A stretch of DNA of 13,864 bases, taken from NCBI GenBank assembly GCA_001464165.1, contig LNEX01000123.1:1-13864 (forward strand), written 5' to 3'. How positions within the stretch are numbered: the first letter of the stretch is position 1; each line of letters starts with the position of its first letter. The translations under genes and the position numbers were made by a program. The notes below the pieces were generated by a model that did no database searches, had not been told where the DNA came from, and saw nothing but the letters and a program-made list of their open reading frames with translations. This DNA is from a bacterium Ga0077546. Lineage in GTDB: Bacteria > Cyanobacteriota > Vampirovibrionia > Obscuribacterales > Obscuribacteraceae. This document shows, piece after piece, positions 2,577 through 12,727 of the stretch.

Positions 2577-3707
2577 ATGAAAATTAGTTCTGTTGAAACT
2601 ACTCCTAATCCAAACTCAATTAAACTGAATTTTGTTGAGCCTCTTGGTCAGACAGCTACTTATACTTCGTCCAGCCAGGCAGCTCCTGATTTCGTTATCA
2701 AGCTTTTGGCCATCGAAGGCGTGCAGAGTGTTTTTGTTTGTGGCGATTTTATCACCTTAAATCGCCACCCGCTCTCTGATTGGCGGTTGCTGCTAGAGCT
2801 TGCAACTTTTGCCCTAACGGGTGACAAGCTTTCTGGGCTTGACTCTTCTTCTTCGTCTTCTTCTTTTTCAGTCACCGCTCTCGAAGGGCAGAACCAAATT
2901 TTAGTGCAGACTTTTAGAAGTGTGCCGATTCAAGTCAAAGCTGTGGATATTGCCGGCGAAACTCGTCTCAGTCTTGGCTCGGCTTTTAATGAAGCGGCCC
3001 AGCTAATTCAGAAAGAGACTGGGGCTGATTTTCTTAAAGAGCGGCTCTGGCTAGACCATGGTCTGCGCTATGGCGAGCGTGCTGAAGTGGCAGAGCAAGT
3101 GCTCTCTGAGTTACAGAACTATTTCTCTCCTGAACGCCTAGGTTTGCTTGTAAGGCAGGCGCTTGGTGCTAGCGGTGCTGAGCCAGAGGCCGATCTTGAT
3201 CAAATCAAACGACTTTTGTCTCACTCTCAATGGCAGCAAAGATTGTTGGCAGTTCAAGAGCTTAGTCGAATTGATAGCAGCCAGTCTGTGGTTATAGACC
3301 TTCTGATTGAGTCTTTGCAAGACAGCAATGCTCAAGTTCGTCGCCTTGCTGCTGCTGCTTTGGGCACTACAGGCAGTGCCCTAGCTGTGCCTAGTCTTTG
3401 TCAGGCTGTCACTTCTGATAGTTCCATTGCCGTGCGGCGCACAGCAGGTGACGCGCTTTCTGATATTGGTGACCCTGCTGCGCGCCCGGCCATGTGTCTG
3501 GCCCTCAGCGACGAGAACAAGCTTGTGCGTTGGCGTGCAGCGAGATTCTTAAATGATCTTGGTGGGGAGGAGAGCCTCCACTATCTTGAGGCTGCAGTAA
3601 AAGATAGTGAGTATGAGGTATTTTTGGAAATTAGCGCTGCCATTGAGCGAATTAAGAGTGGAGCACTGGGGGCTGGCCCTGCCTGGAAGCGCATTGCCGA
3701 CCGCTAG
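2577..3707 (+). CDS. cvfC: CvfC-like protein: Nfu N-terminal domain plus HEAT repeats
   Basis: Matches the conserved virulence factor C family, first described in Staphylococcus aureus, along its whole length. Residues 6-80 are an Nfu/NifU N-terminal domain (ETTPNPNSIKL, then GVQSVFVCGDFITL and DW). A Ser-rich linker at 90-98 follows. The middle region (100-200) has the family pattern FRSVPIQVK and ERLWLDHGLRYGE. From about 220 to 360 are HEAT/PBS-lyase-type helical repeats including AVRRTAGDALSDIG (285-298) and LVRWRAARFLNDLG (316-329). The C-terminus ends in AWKRIADR, like the W-K-x-x-A-N-R end of the staphylococcal protein as I remember it. The CxxC of NifU-type scaffolds is absent, so Fe-S carrier activity is not expected. 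Molecular function is unknown; binding to proteins through the HEAT surface is likely. The ATG has only a weak Shine-Dalgarno sequence. Confidence 0.85.
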   Translation: MKISSVETTPNPNSIKLNFVEPLGQTATYTSSSQAAPDFVIKLLAIEGVQSVFVCGDFITLNRHPLSDWRLLLELATFALTGDKLSGLDSSSSSSSFSVTALEGQNQILVQTFRSVPIQVKAVDIAGETRLSLGSAFNEAAQLIQKETGADFLKERLWLDHGLRYGERAEVAEQVLSELQNYFSPERLGLLVRQALGASGAEPEADLDQIKRLLSHSQWQQRLLAVQELSRIDSSQSVVIDLLIESLQDSNAQVRRLAAAALGTTGSALAVPSLCQAVTSDSSIAVRRTAGDALSDIGDPAARPAMCLALSDENKLVRWRAARFLNDLGGEESLHYLEAAVKDSEYEVFLEISAAIERIKSGALGAGPAWKRIADR

Positions 3708-4435: not shown

Positions 4436-6757
4436 ATGGCTACACGTAATCCGAATTTAGATCTAATAGTAAGCCTTACGGACTTTTCTGACTTTTCTGA
4501 TTTGTCAGAGTCGTTGAGTAAAACGGCAGTATGGCGGCAGAACCTCGGTAAGTCTGAAATTGACCTGTCTGTCCCGCGCGGCAGTAACTGGTTCACTGGT
4601 TTGACTCCTGAGAATTGCCCGGGCTTTTCTAGCGACGGCAAGCTTTACTCTTTGGTGATGCCCAACCTAGCAACTTGCACCAGGCAGGAAGCACTAGACT
4701 ACTTCAATAACACTTGGACTCTCTCAGAGCTTTTGTTCTCTTCGCTCAAGGGTGATGAGGCTTTCTATCGGCCACCTTACCATAGCTTGCGTCACCCTCT
4801 GATTTTCTATTATGTCCATCCGGCCGTTCTTTACGTCAATAAATTACGCTTGGCAAAATTAGTAGAAAGCCCTATAGATTCTAAATTTGAGAGTCTCTTT
4901 GAGACCGGTGTCGATGAAATGTCTTGGGACGACATGTCGAAGAATGACATTGAATGGCCTGCTGTTGACGAGGCGCAGGCCTATCGCCGCAGAGCTTATG
5001 AGTTGATCACCGAGGTTATTGCTAGCGCCCCAGGGCTAGAGTCTGGCCATGCTCCCATCTCTCAAGAGAGCTCGCTTTGGGCACTCTTCATGGGCTTTGA
5101 GCATGAGAGAATCCACCTTGAGACTTCATCTGTTTTGATTAGAGAGTTGCCGCTTGCTCTCTTGGCGCGGCCAGAGATGTTTCCAGCTAATTCACCGAGC
5201 TATGGAGTTCAGGGCGAGCAAGAGTTTTTGCCTGTTCCAGCTGGGGCTGTTTCTGTTGGCAAGTCGTCTACTGTGCCGACCTTTGGCTGGGACAACGAAT
5301 ACGGCGAGCGATTGGTTAATGTCCCGGCATTCGAGGCCAGCCGTTCATTAGTAAGCAATTTTCAGTTCTGGAAATTCGTTGACCAAGGTGGTTACCAGAA
5401 TGACAAGTACTGGAGTGTTACTGGCCTTCGCTGGAAGCAGTTCCGCAATGTCAAATGTCCTACGTTTTGGGTGCCCGATGGCCCTCAAGGCCTTAACCAG
5501 TTTCGCTTACGGACACTTTTTGAAGTAATAGACATGCCCTGGGACTGGCCTGTTGTTATCAATTATCATGAAGCAGAAGCTTTTTGCGCATGGTTGCAGG
5601 CTCATGATAGTGAGCACGCATTCCGTCCGCTCACCGAAGCTGAGCATCAGCGGCTGGCCACAGCCAATCAATTCAAACTAGACGTTGAAAATGGTGAAGT
5701 GATATCGCCTCGAGGTAATATCAACCTCAGAGCTGGTTCTGAAAGTTCGGTTATTGAAGATACTGTCACTGCCGGTGGTGACATGCCTTTTCGCGATTTA
5801 TATGGCAATGTCTGGCAATGGTTAGGTGATCATTTTAACCCATTGCCAGGATTCAGAATTAATCGGCTTTATGACGATTTTAGTACACCTTGTTTTGATG
5901 GCGAGCACCAAATGATTGCTGGCGGCTCATTCATCAGCACTGGCGATGAGGCCAGTGTACATGCACGATTCCACTTTAGACCGCATTTCTTTCAGCATGC
6001 TGGCTTGAGGGTTGTGCGCACAAGTTTGGCTAGTCGCGAGAATCAGAATCTCGATATCTTCGGTGCCGTAGTTCACCTTGGTAATGAGGCTGAAGTAAAC
6101 GGTGAGATAGCCTCAAGCTACGGTCAAGAAACAAATAGCTTCGAAGACTTGGACGTTTTGCTAGCTCAGTATCTGCCCGAGAGTAAAGCTGAACGCGCCC
6201 TGCAAGTTGGTTGTTCAGTTGGTGCCTTTACACATGTGTTGGCTCGTCATGTTGAGAATGTCGTGGCTGTCGACTTGCGTTTACCCTTGATTAGTGCGGC
6301 GCAAGAAATATTATTGACTAAACGATATCAGTTCAGTCAGCTGGATAGCAATTTAGAGCAGTTTACCGTAAATGGTGTGATTGAGAACCTTAGGGCAGAC
6401 AGTGTGCAGTTTAGGCGCTGTGATCCTTGCTCGTTGCCTGCAGACTACCTAAACTTTGATCTTGTTGCCTTGACTGATGCTTTGACATTGGTGCCGAGTC
6501 CACTGTCTATATTGTCTCGTTTAAAAGGCGACCGTAGTATTGTTAAAGTAGGCGGCTTGCTTTTGTTAGTCAGCGATTTTAATTGGCAAAAACACGTCAC
6601 TCCTAAAGAATTGTGGCTAGGTGAGAAAGAAGTTTGCCATATTCTTTCTCAAGATTTTGAGCTTTTGCAGCAAGTGAATTTGCCCTTCATCAATCGTGAG
6701 AGTGAACGAGTTTTTCGTCAAGTCACCAAACACTGTTCCGTTTGGCGGCGTTTCTAA
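4436..6757 (+). CDS. ovoA: OvoA: 5-histidylcysteine sulfoxide synthase / 4-mercaptohistidine N-methyltransferase
   Basis: Ovothiol biosynthesis enzyme. It joins cysteine to the imidazole C5 of histidine using O2 and non-heme iron, and its C-terminal domain methylates the imidazole nitrogen after C-S cleavage by a PLP lyase. Domains of the 773 residues: DinB-like part 50-245 with OvoA hallmarks (CTRQEALDYFNNTWTL at 81-96, FYRPPYHSLRHPLIFYY at 110-126, FETGVDEMSWDDMSKN at 155-170) and GFEHERIHLE (220-229); probable iron ligands are H120, H223 and H227. An FGE/SUMF1-like domain spans 262-530 (PRGNINLR, FRDLYGNVWQW, AGGSFISTGDE, HFRPHFFQHAGLRVVR). The SAM methyltransferase spans about 570-773 with VGCSVGAF (591-598), VDLR (612-615) and TPKELWLGE (722-730). 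The start is fixed by an in-frame TGA directly upstream. Residues 12-30 contain a short repeated Phe-Ser-Asp stretch not typical of the family. No ovoB-type lyase gene lies in the window. Confidence 0.95.
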   Translation: MATRNPNLDLIVSLTDFSDFSDLSESLSKTAVWRQNLGKSEIDLSVPRGSNWFTGLTPENCPGFSSDGKLYSLVMPNLATCTRQEALDYFNNTWTLSELLFSSLKGDEAFYRPPYHSLRHPLIFYYVHPAVLYVNKLRLAKLVESPIDSKFESLFETGVDEMSWDDMSKNDIEWPAVDEAQAYRRRAYELITEVIASAPGLESGHAPISQESSLWALFMGFEHERIHLETSSVLIRELPLALLARPEMFPANSPSYGVQGEQEFLPVPAGAVSVGKSSTVPTFGWDNEYGERLVNVPAFEASRSLVSNFQFWKFVDQGGYQNDKYWSVTGLRWKQFRNVKCPTFWVPDGPQGLNQFRLRTLFEVIDMPWDWPVVINYHEAEAFCAWLQAHDSEHAFRPLTEAEHQRLATANQFKLDVENGEVISPRGNINLRAGSESSVIEDTVTAGGDMPFRDLYGNVWQWLGDHFNPLPGFRINRLYDDFSTPCFDGEHQMIAGGSFISTGDEASVHARFHFRPHFFQHAGLRVVRTSLASRENQNLDIFGAVVHLGNEAEVNGEIASSYGQETNSFEDLDVLLAQYLPESKAERALQVGCSVGAFTHVLARHVENVVAVDLRLPLISAAQEILLTKRYQFSQLDSNLEQFTVNGVIENLRADSVQFRRCDPCSLPADYLNFDLVALTDALTLVPSPLSILSRLKGDRSIVKVGGLLLLVSDFNWQKHVTPKELWLGEKEVCHILSQDFELLQQVNLPFINRESERVFRQVTKHCSVWRRF

Positions 6758-8351: not shown

Positions 8352-8378
8352 GTGACTGTGGTAGTTAGAGATCGTTTT

Positions 8379-8774
8379 ATGCCCTGCCCTTGTTGTAGTC
8401 AGGTTGTCTATCACAAGTGCTGTAAGCCCTATCACGATGGTGCTATTCCCCAATCAGCACTGCTTTTGATGCGCTCACGCTATTGTGCCTATGCCTTAGG
8501 GCTGGCTGATTATTTGATGAATACCACTCACCCTGATCACCCGGCTTATAATCCTGATTTTATTGAATGGAAAGCCGATTTGTTGAACTTCTCTAGAGGT
8601 ACTAATTTTCACGGTTTGAAAATACTTGAATTTGTAGATGGCGCAGAAATGGCCACTGTTTCTTTCAGTGCATACTTACGCCAGGGCGAGCATGATTCTA
8701 CCTTTTCTGAGAAGAGCACATTTATAAAGCAAGACGGCCGTTGGCTGTACCAAGCTGGTGAGCTAGCAACCTAA
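8379..8774 (+). CDS. ychJ: YchJ-like (UPF0225) SEC-C motif protein
   Basis: Small zinc-binding protein of the YchJ family, biochemical role not established. From ATG 8379 it starts MPCPCCSQ and has a SEC-C-type cysteine cluster (C3, C5, C6, C14, C15), the hallmark LMRSRYCAY (30-38), DYLMNTTHP, VSFSAY, and GRWLYQAGEL at the end, matching the WYY-x-DG region of YchJ. The first motif reads CPCC rather than the usual CPCG, and the second, C-terminal SEC-C motif of E. coli YchJ is missing, giving 131 residues. I chose ATG 8379 because AGAG sits 8 nt upstream and family members begin just before the first Cys; the frame also allows GTG 8352, directly after the yqeY stop, which would add nine residues. 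Confidence 0.82.
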   Translation: MPCPCCSQVVYHKCCKPYHDGAIPQSALLLMRSRYCAYALGLADYLMNTTHPDHPAYNPDFIEWKADLLNFSRGTNFHGLKILEFVDGAEMATVSFSAYLRQGEHDSTFSEKSTFIKQDGRWLYQAGELAT

Positions 8775-8781
8775 ATTTAAG

Positions 8782-8795
8782 GTCTACTTGTAGAC
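8782..8795. terminator. Inverted repeat between convergent genes, possible two-way terminator
   Basis: GTCTAC-TT-GTAGAC is a perfect inverted repeat; as RNA it can fold into five pairs closed by a CUUG loop. It sits between the ychJ-like stop and the minus-strand operon and overlaps the stop codon of the displaced TPR tail frame. No strong T run follows on either strand, so termination would be weak. Confidence 0.3.
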
Positions 8796-8954
8796 GTAGT
8801 CCCAGCCTGTCGATTCTGTTTTATGCTCAGGCTTGTCTTCTGGCTTACGCTCTGGCTTTACTTGAGCTGGTTTTAGCGTCCTCTCAAGCTTTGGGTTGCT
8901 GCTTTCTGGCACTGGCTTGCGAACTGTGGCTTTCGCTAGGGGCACTTTGTTTAT
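8784..8954 (-). pseudogene. Displaced C-terminal tail of the three-TPR protein (-1 frame)
   Basis: Directly after the TPR gene's stop, the -1 frame is open for 56 sense codons and ends in TAG at 8784-8786. Its product is Lys/Pro/Glu-rich, reading INKVPLAKATVRKP, then PAQVKPERKPEDKPEHK and ending GWDYVYK. This composition is normal for a flexible tail of an exported protein and abnormal for non-coding DNA. The two frames meet at a run of four A on the minus strand (8954-8957): adding one A would give ...MRQPK-INKVPL... without a break. The segment has no good start codon or Shine-Dalgarno sequence of its own, so it is best read as the tail of the upstream gene, separated by a one-base deletion, an assembly error or a ribosomal frameshift. 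Confidence 0.65.
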
Positions 8955-9484
8955 TTTGGCTGGCGCATGGCGAGAATTTTATTGATGTCGGCAATGTCGC
9001 GATTAATTGCTGCTCGTTCGCCGGCTGGCATGGTGAGCTTGAGGCACTTCTCGAAAGTGCTAACTGTCTCTGCCAGTTTATTTTGCTTCAACAGAGCGTT
9101 GGCGAGATTGCTCCAAGTCATCCAGTCTTTATTGTTCAAGGTCAGTGCTTTGCGAAAAGCCTGTTCAGCACTTTCATAATCTCCTAGCTTACGGTAGCAA
9201 AAACCCAAATTGATATAGAAGTCTGGGTCATCAGGAAAACGAGCAATGGCTTCATGATAGTTGTCCACGGCATCTTCATAGCGTTCTTTTTCTAGGTATT
9301 TGTTGGCTAGATTGTAATATGGTATGGCATCGCTCCAGGCGGCCGGATGTTCTATGGGGTCTTGCAACTGTCCGTTTTTTTCTTGCTTAATTGCTGGTGC
9401 GGCTTGTGTCTCTAAACTGACAAGCCAGCTGCTTAGACAAAGAGCGAGGATATATATTGTTTTTCTTGTTTTGTTCTTTTGCAT
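8951..9484 (-). CDS. Exported three-TPR protein, apparently frameshifted near its end
   Basis: Exported protein with three tetratricopeptide repeats, probably a scaffold in the periplasm or on the cell surface. As read it has 177 residues: a basic N-terminus and hydrophobic core with cleavage likely after ETQA (28), then TPRs at 53-86, 87-120 and 121-154 showing the usual A-x-x-x-Y/F and A-x-x-x-F-x-x-A-L spacing. The frame stops at TAA (8951-8953) after MRQPK, while the -1 frame continues for 56 codons; the intact protein would be about 233 residues. Its ATG lies 3 nt after the stop of the upstream gene and has no Shine-Dalgarno sequence, so its translation is probably coupled. It is the last gene of the minus-strand operon. 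Interaction with the upstream TPR/TonB-C-like protein is plausible from context only. Confidence 0.8.
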   Translation of the reverse strand: MQKNKTRKTIYILALCLSSWLVSLETQAAPAIKQEKNGQLQDPIEHPAAWSDAIPYYNLANKYLEKERYEDAVDNYHEAIARFPDDPDFYINLGFCYRKLGDYESAEQAFRKALTLNNKDWMTWSNLANALLKQNKLAETVSTFEKCLKLTMPAGERAAINRDIADINKILAMRQPK

Positions 9485-9487
9485 GTT

Positions 9488-10945
9488 TTAACGATTTAGG
9501 TCTGGCCAACTCAAGATTTTATTGTCATCAATAGAAGCAAATGGATCTCCTTCAGTTACAGCGGCACCGGTAGTGGTACCTAAGTCGTTTAGTTCAAGGG
9601 TAACTGCTCGAAGTTCTTTGATTGTTGGTTTTGTCATTATGTGTCCTTCAACCTCAGCTTTAATTTCACGAGTTTGTTCTAGCAGTTTGGCTTTGGTGGC
9701 TAGGTCTTTTTCTTTTGCCAGCTTTTTCATTTTTGCTTTGAGCTCGCGTTCATTTTTAGTTTTTAAAATTTTCGCCTTGATTTGAGCATCAGCGGCTAGT
9801 GCATCTGCCAACTGTTTGATTGCTTCGGCTTGTTTTACCTGCTCGCGATAGTTGCGCACATAGGCCAGCATTTTGCCGAAATTCCAGGTCATCTGAAAAT
9901 TCCAACCGGTTATATTTGAGTTGGCAGGAAAGGCGAGGATGCGCGAATGATTGAGGTCGCGAATCGCTCCAACGAGACATTTATTTAAGACCGAGTCGGC
10001 TGTGCTGGCGTAAATGCTGCCATGGAGATTACCTTTTCTATCAATACTAAAGATAGCGGCTGCGGCACCTCTTACCTGGTTTGTCGACTCGGCATTCAAG
10101 CGCTTGAGCAAAACGTGTTGAATAGAGCGTTTAAATCGAGCTATCCAGTAATCCCATTCAGGGATATTTTCTGGGGCCTGCGAATAGACAGTCAGACCTT
10201 CAGCATGACTAGCCCAAGCCGGTACATTCATGGTTTTGCTTTTCTCAACCAAATCTAGCATTTCGTCCATGTGCATAATTTCAGCTGGGCCACTAGTGCG
10301 CCTAGAGCGAGAAGATTGTGATGATTGAGAAGAGGATGCACCGCTGGCAGTCTTTATCATCTTTTTGCCGCTGCGAATGGCGTCTTTCATCGAGCCAAAC
10401 AAATCAGGAATTTCAAAATTTGCTGATGTTGTCGGCTTTTCGTTATTGCTTGGTTTGTTAGTTTCGGGCTTTGTCAGGCCGATAAAGTCAGTCACTGAAG
10501 AAGTCATTTGGGCAAACCAGTCTTTGGGCTTGGTTGGTGCTGCCCGTAATAGCGGTGATTTCGCGTTGTCTAGGCCCTCTAGCTTTTCTTCGGCAAAGGC
10601 ACTAATCATTTCTGGTGGAGCTAGACGAGCGGCCATTTCTAGCTCTTTTAAGGCAGACATGTCCAAGCCCTGTTTCTTCAAGGCGAGGCCCAAGTAGTAG
10701 TGCGTTTTGCTGTCGTCAGGGTGCTCTTTTAAGTCAGTGAGCAAAAGGTTGGCTGCCTCGCCATATTTTCCCGCTTTGTATGCCTTTAGAGCCAGGTTAA
10801 CTGTGGCTTTAGAATCAAGTTTTGCCGCTGGTTTTTTCTCATCTTTAACTTGAGCGTGTACTTGGCTTATAGACTGGAGTGAACACAGTGAAATACTTAG
10901 GGCGATGAAAAAATTTGATGCTTTAATCAATATTTTCCGGCTCAT
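9488..10945 (-). CDS. Exported TPR protein with internal TonB-C-like domain and coiled coil
   Basis: Exported 485-residue protein. Signal peptide: MSRKILIK, hydrophobic core, cleavage likely after VHA (31). Two TPR units lie at about 46-113 (AYKAGKYGEAANLLL; HYYLGLALKKQGLDMSALKELE). A low-complexity linker with a Ser/Arg run (201-219) follows. Residues 264-357 resemble the TonB C-terminal fold: WDYWIARFKRSIQHVL, IFSIDRKGNLHG, a Ser/Thr-Ala turn, LNKCLVGAIRDL, then FPANSNITGWNFQMTWNF. A Lys/Glu/Ala-rich helix, probably coiled coil, spans 365-435, before a short acidic tail. TonB-C modules usually end a protein, so an internal one with a long helix behind it is unusual. No TonB-type N-terminal anchor or Pro-rich rod is present, so energy transduction is not implied. 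The ATG overlaps the stop of the upstream gene (ATGA), showing operon membership. Confidence 0.78.
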   Translation of the reverse strand: MSRKILIKASNFFIALSISLCSLQSISQVHAQVKDEKKPAAKLDSKATVNLALKAYKAGKYGEAANLLLTDLKEHPDDSKTHYYLGLALKKQGLDMSALKELEMAARLAPPEMISAFAEEKLEGLDNAKSPLLRAAPTKPKDWFAQMTSSVTDFIGLTKPETNKPSNNEKPTTSANFEIPDLFGSMKDAIRSGKKMIKTASGASSSQSSQSSRSRRTSGPAEIMHMDEMLDLVEKSKTMNVPAWASHAEGLTVYSQAPENIPEWDYWIARFKRSIQHVLLKRLNAESTNQVRGAAAAIFSIDRKGNLHGSIYASTADSVLNKCLVGAIRDLNHSRILAFPANSNITGWNFQMTWNFGKMLAYVRNYREQVKQAEAIKQLADALAADAQIKAKILKTKNERELKAKMKKLAKEKDLATKAKLLEQTREIKAEVEGHIMTKPTIKELRAVTLELNDLGTTTGAAVTEGDPFASIDDNKILSWPDLNR

Positions 10946-12546
10946 GCACTGGGGCTCATGTCTCTGAACATGACTATAGGATAGTTGTTTTTCTGTGCCA
11001 CTACTTTGGCGGCCTTGGCGGCAGCTAGAAGCAGACCAATTTCGTGGCAGTCTTCCGGGATACCAGCCACACCAAATGCTAGAGCCAGTTGGCTGAGATT
11101 GGCCTCAGGGCCAAGACTTCGAGCTCTCAATATTTCAAGTATGCGATGAGCCAGCACTGCCGCTGCTTGTGTTTCGGTGTGGGGCAGCAGAATGGCATAG
11201 CTTAGAGCTTCAAAGTGAGCAAAGAGATCAAGCGAACGTTTAGCACCGTTTATGCGACTAACCGCTTCTTGTAAAGCTGATGGAGAAAGGGCCTTGAGCT
11301 CGTTATTGTGCCAAGCCCACATCTCAAATATGATGATCGAATAGGGTATGCGATACTGCTGAAAACGCTGAAATTCTTGATCTAGAAAATAGTGAAAAGA
11401 GGGATAGGAAAGAATCCCAGTATCGGGGCGAGACAACATTTTGTTGACTCTCTCAATTGCCACATGATCAATCGGAGTGGCATTTAGCCCAGCTGTTTTA
11501 TCGGTTTTTGCTGGTTTGCTTGAGGCGGTAATGAGCTTGCTATTGACCAAATTGAAGAGAATTGGCACCCAGTCTTTTTTAGCCATGGGGGTCTTGCGCA
11601 AAATATCGGCCAAGGTGGAACAGCCATCAAGTTGAATATAGAAATATTTCTGCCTGGCCATATCTACAGGAGCACCACTTGCAACCCGTTCTTCGAAGTC
11701 TCTTTCAGTCAAGCTGGCTTCAGCTTTGTTGATATACGACTCGGCTTTTATACCTGCGGCATCAAGTGTCTTGGTCTGATCAAGAATAGTAATTCCTTCC
11801 ATCAAAAGTGCATCGATGCGCTTCACTACGGTTCTTAGCGGGTTGGTTTCATCCCGGTAGAAGTAGAATTTACCTTTTTCCCAGGTAACCAGTTCTAATA
11901 CTGCCAGGTCACCTTCGAGACCTAGGGCAGTGGCATGGGTCATTGCGCCCTCGTAAAAGAATACTTCTGCTCCCGATTGACCGTTGTCGACAAACAAACA
12001 GCCAGTCATGCCACCCATATTGATCGATTGAAGCAAGTTGGGCACTTGCATATCTACTAAGCTGCCCTCCATGGTGGCAACTTTTGAGTTGCGGCTGGCA
12101 TTGGAAACAGGGGCCCTTTGGGTGGAGATTGATTGCATTTTTAGCAGTGTGCTAGTGAATATGCCGCTGCTGTTAATGTTGCCCTTCGCTGAGTTGCTTA
12201 CCAGTTGGTTCGAATCGCCCAGGGGAAGAGCATCACCGGTGCATTCTGCTGTCACTAAGTTGAGAATGAGGCCGACATCGCCGCATGGATAAGTCCAAAT
12301 TTCTCTAATTTCTCTCTGGCTGCTTTCGGTCAATTCCCAGACCGGTTCGCCGCCAAGAGGATTGAAGGTGCATGTCAGTGTCAGTGTATTTTCGCTAGCA
12401 GGTCGCCCCCAAATTACTTCAATTCTTCTACCGGCACTTTTTTGGGCGTGTTGAAGAGCTTCCGTAACATCTTTGCTAGTTGGCAAAGACTCCAGTCGCG
12501 GTAGACGCAGAGGCAGAGAGTTTGGGTCGACTTTGGGACGGTACAT
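10942..12546 (-). CDS. PATAN (DUF4388) plus degenerate GGDEF-like regulator
   Basis: Cytoplasmic signalling protein with no membrane segment, 534 residues from ATG 12546. An N-terminal alpha/beta domain (20-100, TLTLTCTF at 54-61) is shared with the divergent gene. A PATAN/DUF4388 domain spans about 158-262 (MEGSLVDMQVPNLLQSI, GCLFVDNG, VFFYEGAMTHATA, GDLAVLELVTWEKGKFYFY), followed by a helical winged-helix-like stretch (275-342). Residues 371-530 have a GGDEF-like layout (DTGILSYPSFHYFLDQEFQR, HFEALSYAILLP, FGVAGIP). The GGDEF signature is replaced by F-E-A-L-S-Y and the metal-binding acidic positions are missing, so cyclase activity is not expected; nucleotide or protein binding is possible. 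The frame extends upstream to ATG 12654, but those 36 residues lack domain character; neither start has a clear Shine-Dalgarno sequence. First gene of the minus-strand operon, overlapping the next by 4 bp. Confidence 0.8.
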   Translation of the reverse strand: MYRPKVDPNSLPLRLPRLESLPTSKDVTEALQHAQKSAGRRIEVIWGRPASENTLTLTCTFNPLGGEPVWELTESSQREIREIWTYPCGDVGLILNLVTAECTGDALPLGDSNQLVSNSAKGNINSSGIFTSTLLKMQSISTQRAPVSNASRNSKVATMEGSLVDMQVPNLLQSINMGGMTGCLFVDNGQSGAEVFFYEGAMTHATALGLEGDLAVLELVTWEKGKFYFYRDETNPLRTVVKRIDALLMEGITILDQTKTLDAAGIKAESYINKAEASLTERDFEERVASGAPVDMARQKYFYIQLDGCSTLADILRKTPMAKKDWVPILFNLVNSKLITASSKPAKTDKTAGLNATPIDHVAIERVNKMLSRPDTGILSYPSFHYFLDQEFQRFQQYRIPYSIIIFEMWAWHNNELKALSPSALQEAVSRINGAKRSLDLFAHFEALSYAILLPHTETQAAAVLAHRILEILRARSLGPEANLSQLALAFGVAGIPEDCHEIGLLLAAAKAAKVVAQKNNYPIVMFRDMSPSA

Positions 12547-12727
12547 TATTTGAACTGTATATCGGTTTGGACAGTACACTTTGACTGGTGGTGAATGAGA
12601 CTTAAGCCTAACAGAATAAGGCCAAATTTTGGATGTAAAGAGAGCTCTAGGCATTCTACTAGTTGCTGGTGCTAGATTTTATTGGGCCAGGCTGCTATTA
12701 AATGATTGTTGAGCCTGCGAGTTTTTA
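12547..12727. promoter_or_regulatory. Divergent intergenic region between the two pseudo-GGDEF genes
   Basis: These 181 bp must hold promoters for the minus-strand operon and for the divergent paralogue. An inverted repeat ACTGT-N12-ACAGT (12554-12575) lies just before the minus-strand start and could be an operator, but it is short. No convincing promoter pair was found on either strand. Confidence 0.35.

Follow-up and report, generated by a model that had tools for sequence, protein, structure and literature searches.

The described systems closest to the locus analysed here are the dnaX-type -1 frameshift genes, the bacterial genes truncated by a frameshift and the TPR family of the Obscuribacterales. 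PMC5009743 describes nearly all -1 shifts as needing at least a Z_ZZN tetranucleotide, and gives A_AAA_AAG as the site at which E. coli dnaX shifts. Genes of the dnaX type share with the present locus consecutive As where the two frames meet and an overlap in the -1 frame. Frameshift-truncated bacterial genes share with it an indel that is not a multiple of three, an immediate stop, a conserved sequence out of frame downstream and intact relatives, and the copy studied here shows nothing beyond what is usual for such genes. The Obscuribacterales TPR family (P0001-P0086) shares with it the TPR domain and the domain order, the closest members having the same GWDYVYK ending; the present copy, on the other hand, is cut before the linker and the C-terminal motif. 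A search for literature joining Obscuribacterales with tetratricopeptide found none. The locus is probably the outcome of a real and recent frame-breaking deletion in the organism, which cuts the TPR protein before its C-terminal motif.

The window, that is the whole stretch of 13,864 nucleotides that was analysed (contig LNEX01000123.1 of the bacterium Ga0077546), carries 12 ORFs. The features around the frame join are collected in Table 1, where L004 is a collinear locus of genome G001. The TPR gene begins with the ATG at 9484 and stops with the TAA at 8953-8951 of the minus strand, and the 177-aa protein is matched by the TPR families of Pfam. By eye, with no tool applied, its N-terminus resembles a Sec signal peptide. 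The minus-strand letters around the join are ...CGC CAG CCA AAA TAA ACA AAG TGC..., in which the AAA codon takes up 8956-8954 and the four As at 8957-8954 are the meeting point of both frames. Starting from the ATA at 8954-8952, the -1 frame encodes INKVPLAKATVRKPVPESSNPKLERTLKPAQVKPERKPEDKPEHKTESTGWDYVYK and ends with the TAG at 8786-8784. This tail consists of a Lys/Pro/Glu-rich linker followed by the C-terminal STGWDYVYK. An earlier note on this DNA had described the stop at TAA, the -1 frame open for 56 codons and their join on A-AAA-TAA of the minus strand; its coordinates and description are correct and the letters agree.

Table 1. Features around the frame join, in positions of the window
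Feature	Positions	Strand	Description	Basis
TPR gene as read now	8951..9484	minus	177 aa, ends ...AMRQPK-TAA	ORF, Pfam TPR families
Out-of-frame C-terminal tail	8784..8954	minus	56 codons and TAG	Homology to relatives
Join with AAAA run and TAA	8946..8957	minus	25 nt fewer (net) than in L004, breakpoints ambiguous	Alignment
GWDYVYK-type motif	8784-8813	minus	Conserved Trp after a variable linker, in an apparently exported TPR family	
Co-directional gene upstream of the TPR gene	9488..10945	minus	485 aa, weak sub-threshold TPR match	
YchJ-like gene, convergent	8352..8774	plus	Frame intact in L004	

The upstream gene for the 485-aa protein, whose frame is intact in L004, ends 3 bp before the TPR gene, and this spacing suggests that the two form an operon. 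On the other side, the stops of the YchJ-like gene and of the tail are separated by 9 bp. The inverted repeat that the earlier note had placed at the TAG is present (GTCTAC-AA-GTAGAC); it is not scored as a terminator, and no terminator was scored anywhere in 8600-9600. Of the genome loci compared below, L001 has a shorter version of the repeat and L002 has none, so it is probably incidental.

The open length of the tail is by itself weak evidence. In 20,000 trials, 5.4% of random sequences with the base-to-base transitions of the tail stayed open this far in a given frame. The codon score of the tail frame is 0.078 log-units per codon; another frame of the same strand reaches 0.147, one frame of the opposite strand 0.119, and the 12 ORFs of the window, all above the tail, range from 0.111 to 0.285. 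The -1 frame past the stop of the YchJ-like gene is also open, for 138 codons (8774-9187 of the plus strand, opposite the tail and the TPR gene), and this opening probably arises as a shadow of coding on the minus strand.

Given these figures, an unrelated or chance open frame is a reading that length and codon statistics, both near chance, would allow. It is refuted by the alignments to relatives, in which the tail is homologous, residue by residue, to the relatives' C-terminus in the right order and place, and its probability is next to nil. The earlier note had counted codon statistics no better than random against the tail; that objection half holds and is overridden by the homology, and it is on homology, not on frame statistics, that the tail is accepted as real.

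The TPR part of the window's gene is homologous to the Obscuribacterales family by its Pfam matches, by 88 protein hits at E <= 0.001 (P0001-P0088, the last two being distant TPR proteins) and by 30 orthologous ORFs. Identity to the TPR protein ranges from 71 to 98% among the 17 best protein hits. The nearest relative, P0001 (241 aa), reads ...LAMRQPK-SATKSETISKK-VPLAKATVRKPVPDNSNPKLERMLKPAQVKPERKPEEKPEHKTESTGWDYVYK and is identical to the window in 174 of 177 residues of the TPR part and in 50 of the 56 aligned residues of the tail; it carries 64 residues after MRQPK, where the tail of the window has 56. The tail is fused in frame in P0001-P0020, the proteins that were read. At the DNA level it is likewise fused, with no stop at the join, in three genome loci (L001-L003). 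Within the family of genome G001, all 50 genomes searched gave matches, many of them to other TPR proteins; the orthologous ORFs fetched were the 30 best matches, one per genome, the other 20 being left unread. Of these ORFs 29 are complete, L026 running off its locus, and a Trp, often within SGWDYVYK, stands among the last 12 residues of all 29. A Trp at this place also occurs in 83 of the 88 protein hits, the exceptions being P0025, P0048, P0084, P0087 and P0088. Among the C-terminal ends listed, none stops at MRQPK; as the protein database is clustered at 90% identity, a longer representative could conceal truncated copies.

The comparison with homologues that the earlier note had proposed thus comes out in favour of its view that the tail belongs to the TPR gene: the tail stands in frame in P0001, in L001-L003 and in all complete ORFs. 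On the residue-level homology to the relatives' ends, the tail is the displaced C-terminus of the same TPR gene. The window copy does not have the Trp-motif tail in frame, as intact members of the family do, but in the -1 frame, the last quarter of the protein apparently being displaced, and its 177-aa product differs from the usual form of the gene. The tail ORF alone gave no candidate in the protein database, and a second copy of the same break was not seen. A separate gene for the tail was considered and rejected: the 53-aa ORF that starts with the GTG at 8945 shares too few words with proteins of fitting length, has no ribosome-binding site when read by eye and has no signal peptide of its own. 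A viral origin of the TPR gene was also rejected, given that 16 stretches in viral contigs match a search pattern and none of them encodes a relative.

The break removes the C-terminal Trp motif. In 54 relatives selected from the 88 hits (the 34 omitted comprising the five hits that lack a terminal Trp, near-duplicates and others), the C-terminal Trp (W236 in P0001) never varies and the preceding Gly hardly does, and the linker is without conservation. The endings include GWDYVYK, GWDWV, GWEEVAK, DWGY and QWLG. The motif is a putative tethered docking peptide. In the structural model of P0001, the TPR helices over residues 51-170 have block means of 97-98, and the linker and tail from residue 181 have poor values of 39-59; helices span residues 47-174, followed only by a short helix/strand stretch near 178. 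Because confidence in the linker and tail is poor, the model gives no docking site for the tail. The sequence comparison lists TPR chains, and none of the 22 listed NCBIfam models scores P0001 at or above its cut-off. A genome-wide C-terminal tag was rejected by a crude test on three genomes, in which a W-D-Y DNA pattern near a stop was rarer than its reversed control (20, 19 and 17 in G001, G002 and G003, against 62, 61 and 57) and no sign appeared that the motif is common to many proteins. The conserved Trp motif is a useful by-product of the analysis, as it makes a clear target for interaction studies in this family.

The earlier note had also raised programmed -1 frameshifting at A-AAA-TAA, by which a short and a long form of an exported scaffold would be made. 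The join does present the minimal Z_ZZN tetranucleotide, a -1 slip on the AAA codon gives a seamless product, and the AAAA run is kept in L001. However, the relatives have one fused form: the place of the join reads CCAAAATCG in L001, CCGAAATCA in L002 and CCGAAGACA in L003, in each case in one frame with no stop, and the two-frame arrangement is found neither in these loci nor in any of the 29 complete ORFs. The AAAA run is absent from L002 and L003, so that two of the three relatives do not keep the site. Unlike in dnaX-type genes, neither a slippery heptamer nor a stimulator was found: in place of an A_AAA_AAR or other X_XXY_YYZ heptamer, or of a conserved shift site, only A_AAA stands before the TAA, and the fold of the 100 nt downstream is unremarkable (z = -0.27 against 200 random sequences with like base-to-base transitions, pseudoknots left out). 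A programmed system is therefore highly improbable. Low-level slippage may yield a little full-length product, which would not amount to a programmed system, and the break looks like a chance mutation with no hidden second product.

The nature of this mutation was addressed by aligning the window with L004 over its full length, in which 12,426 of 13,811 aligned bases (90.0%) are identical; a separate comparison of the two gave 89%. With the tail counted as coding, the alignment has 12 coding indels, 11 of which are multiples of three; the sole exception is a stretch of 25 nt missing from the window at the join, a frame-breaking indel relative to the intact relatives. Three further indels, of 1, 3 and 1 nt, are intergenic. 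The frames of the other 11 ORFs of the window are unbroken both in the window and in L004. Comparison with P0001 gives the same size, as the 11 codons between K and V correspond to 8 nt in the window, a net loss of 25 nt; the difference between 64 and 56 residues after MRQPK, with one base added, leads to this figure too. Of the causes named in the earlier note, a recent deletion is the best option. Its picture of a single missing A is too simple, in view of the net 25-nt difference from both L004 and P0001; an in-frame difference of 24 nt combined with the loss of one base is possible. Three kinds of reconstruction fit the join when drawn by eye from the linkers of P0001 and L001, with the codons of P0001 guessed: a loss of 22 nt plus one of 3 nt, one loss of 25 nt with a substitution, and 24 nt in frame plus one base.

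The same data bear on the possibility that the contig is wrong and the gene intact, through either a one-base error in the A run added to a true in-frame difference of 24 nt or a collapsed stretch in the linker. The break sits on an A run, all 29 complete fetched ORFs are intact, the closest relative P0001 is intact despite only 3 differences in 177 TPR residues, and an undecayed tail is as much to be expected from an error as from a recent mutation. On the other hand, the 12 ORFs hold 180 homopolymers of at least 4 bases, 48 of them 5 to 7 bases long, with no other frame break relative to L004, which argues against a sequence rich in homopolymer errors; and a net change of 25 nt goes beyond simple slippage on a homopolymer. 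One isolated error in the contig is possible. As a whole, a sequence or assembly error is unlikely, and less likely than a recent frame-breaking deletion.

The age of the break was estimated from the state of the tail. Between the window and L001, Ka/Ks is 0.062 in the TPR part and 0.336 over 49 alignable tail codons, and the last nine residues of the tail are identical. For the distant relatives Ka/Ks is of no use, since Ks of the tail is 2.42 for L002 and could not be computed for L003. The tail diverges more than the TPR part in all 10 pairs compared, six intact pairs included. The window and P0001 differ in the tail at 6 of 56 residues and in the TPR part at 3 of 177. The resulting tail/TPR ratio of 6.3 is slightly above the range of the six intact pairs (3.0 to 5.3), but only nine differences underlie it, and two of the six in the tail fall at the join. 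There is no clear excess decay of the tail and, as it has hardly decayed, the break is either very recent or an error.

In the reading preferred here, a recent deletion in the organism, the ancestral protein would have consisted of a signal peptide, a TPR domain, a disordered Lys/Pro linker and the conserved C-terminal Trp motif. A deletion in the fast-evolving linker, with the net loss relative to L004 given above, would have broken the frame. Translation would then stop at the TAA directly after the TPR domain, and the remnant of the linker would be stranded in the -1 frame together with the GWDYVYK motif. Loss of the motif would impair the protein, presumably by removing its docking peptide. 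We infer both that the mutation took place in the organism, not in the sequence record, and that this loss has a functional cost. Seen in this way, the locus is an ordinary case of a conserved, uncharacterised gene truncated by a recent frameshift. The frameshift itself is of little consequence beyond the warning that the 177-aa product is not the typical form of the gene.

Two metagenomic family members depart from their relatives in a comparable place. P0025 (138 aa, JGI) tracks the family through MRQPKSAAKPETISKK and then departs, and P0048 departs from its relatives late in the linker. Judged by their protein sequences, both seem to be independent frame breaks in the linker, with the Trp motif missing, and they may be errors. 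A wider proposal is that the A-rich linker acts as a contingency tract, in which slippage or small deletions repeatedly switch GWDYVYK off and on, as in the window, P0025 and P0048. This proposal is doubtful in the extreme; if it were true, a population would contain exported TPR proteins that have the docking motif alongside others that lack it.

Other genes of the window also deserve mention. The ORF at 4436-6757 of the plus strand encodes an OvoA-like protein that scores 592 with TIGR04344 (5-histidylcysteine sulfoxide synthase, cut-off 400) and 118 with TIGR04345 (C-terminal methyltransferase), under the cut-off of 170; this similarity suggests ovothiol synthesis. A single ORF at 2577-3707 of the plus strand combines a NifU N-terminal domain, a PF13769 domain and HEAT repeats. 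At 10942-12654 of the minus strand lies a gene for a DUF4388 protein whose C-terminus has a weak resemblance to GGDEF, below the threshold; this gene overlaps the next one by 4 bp.
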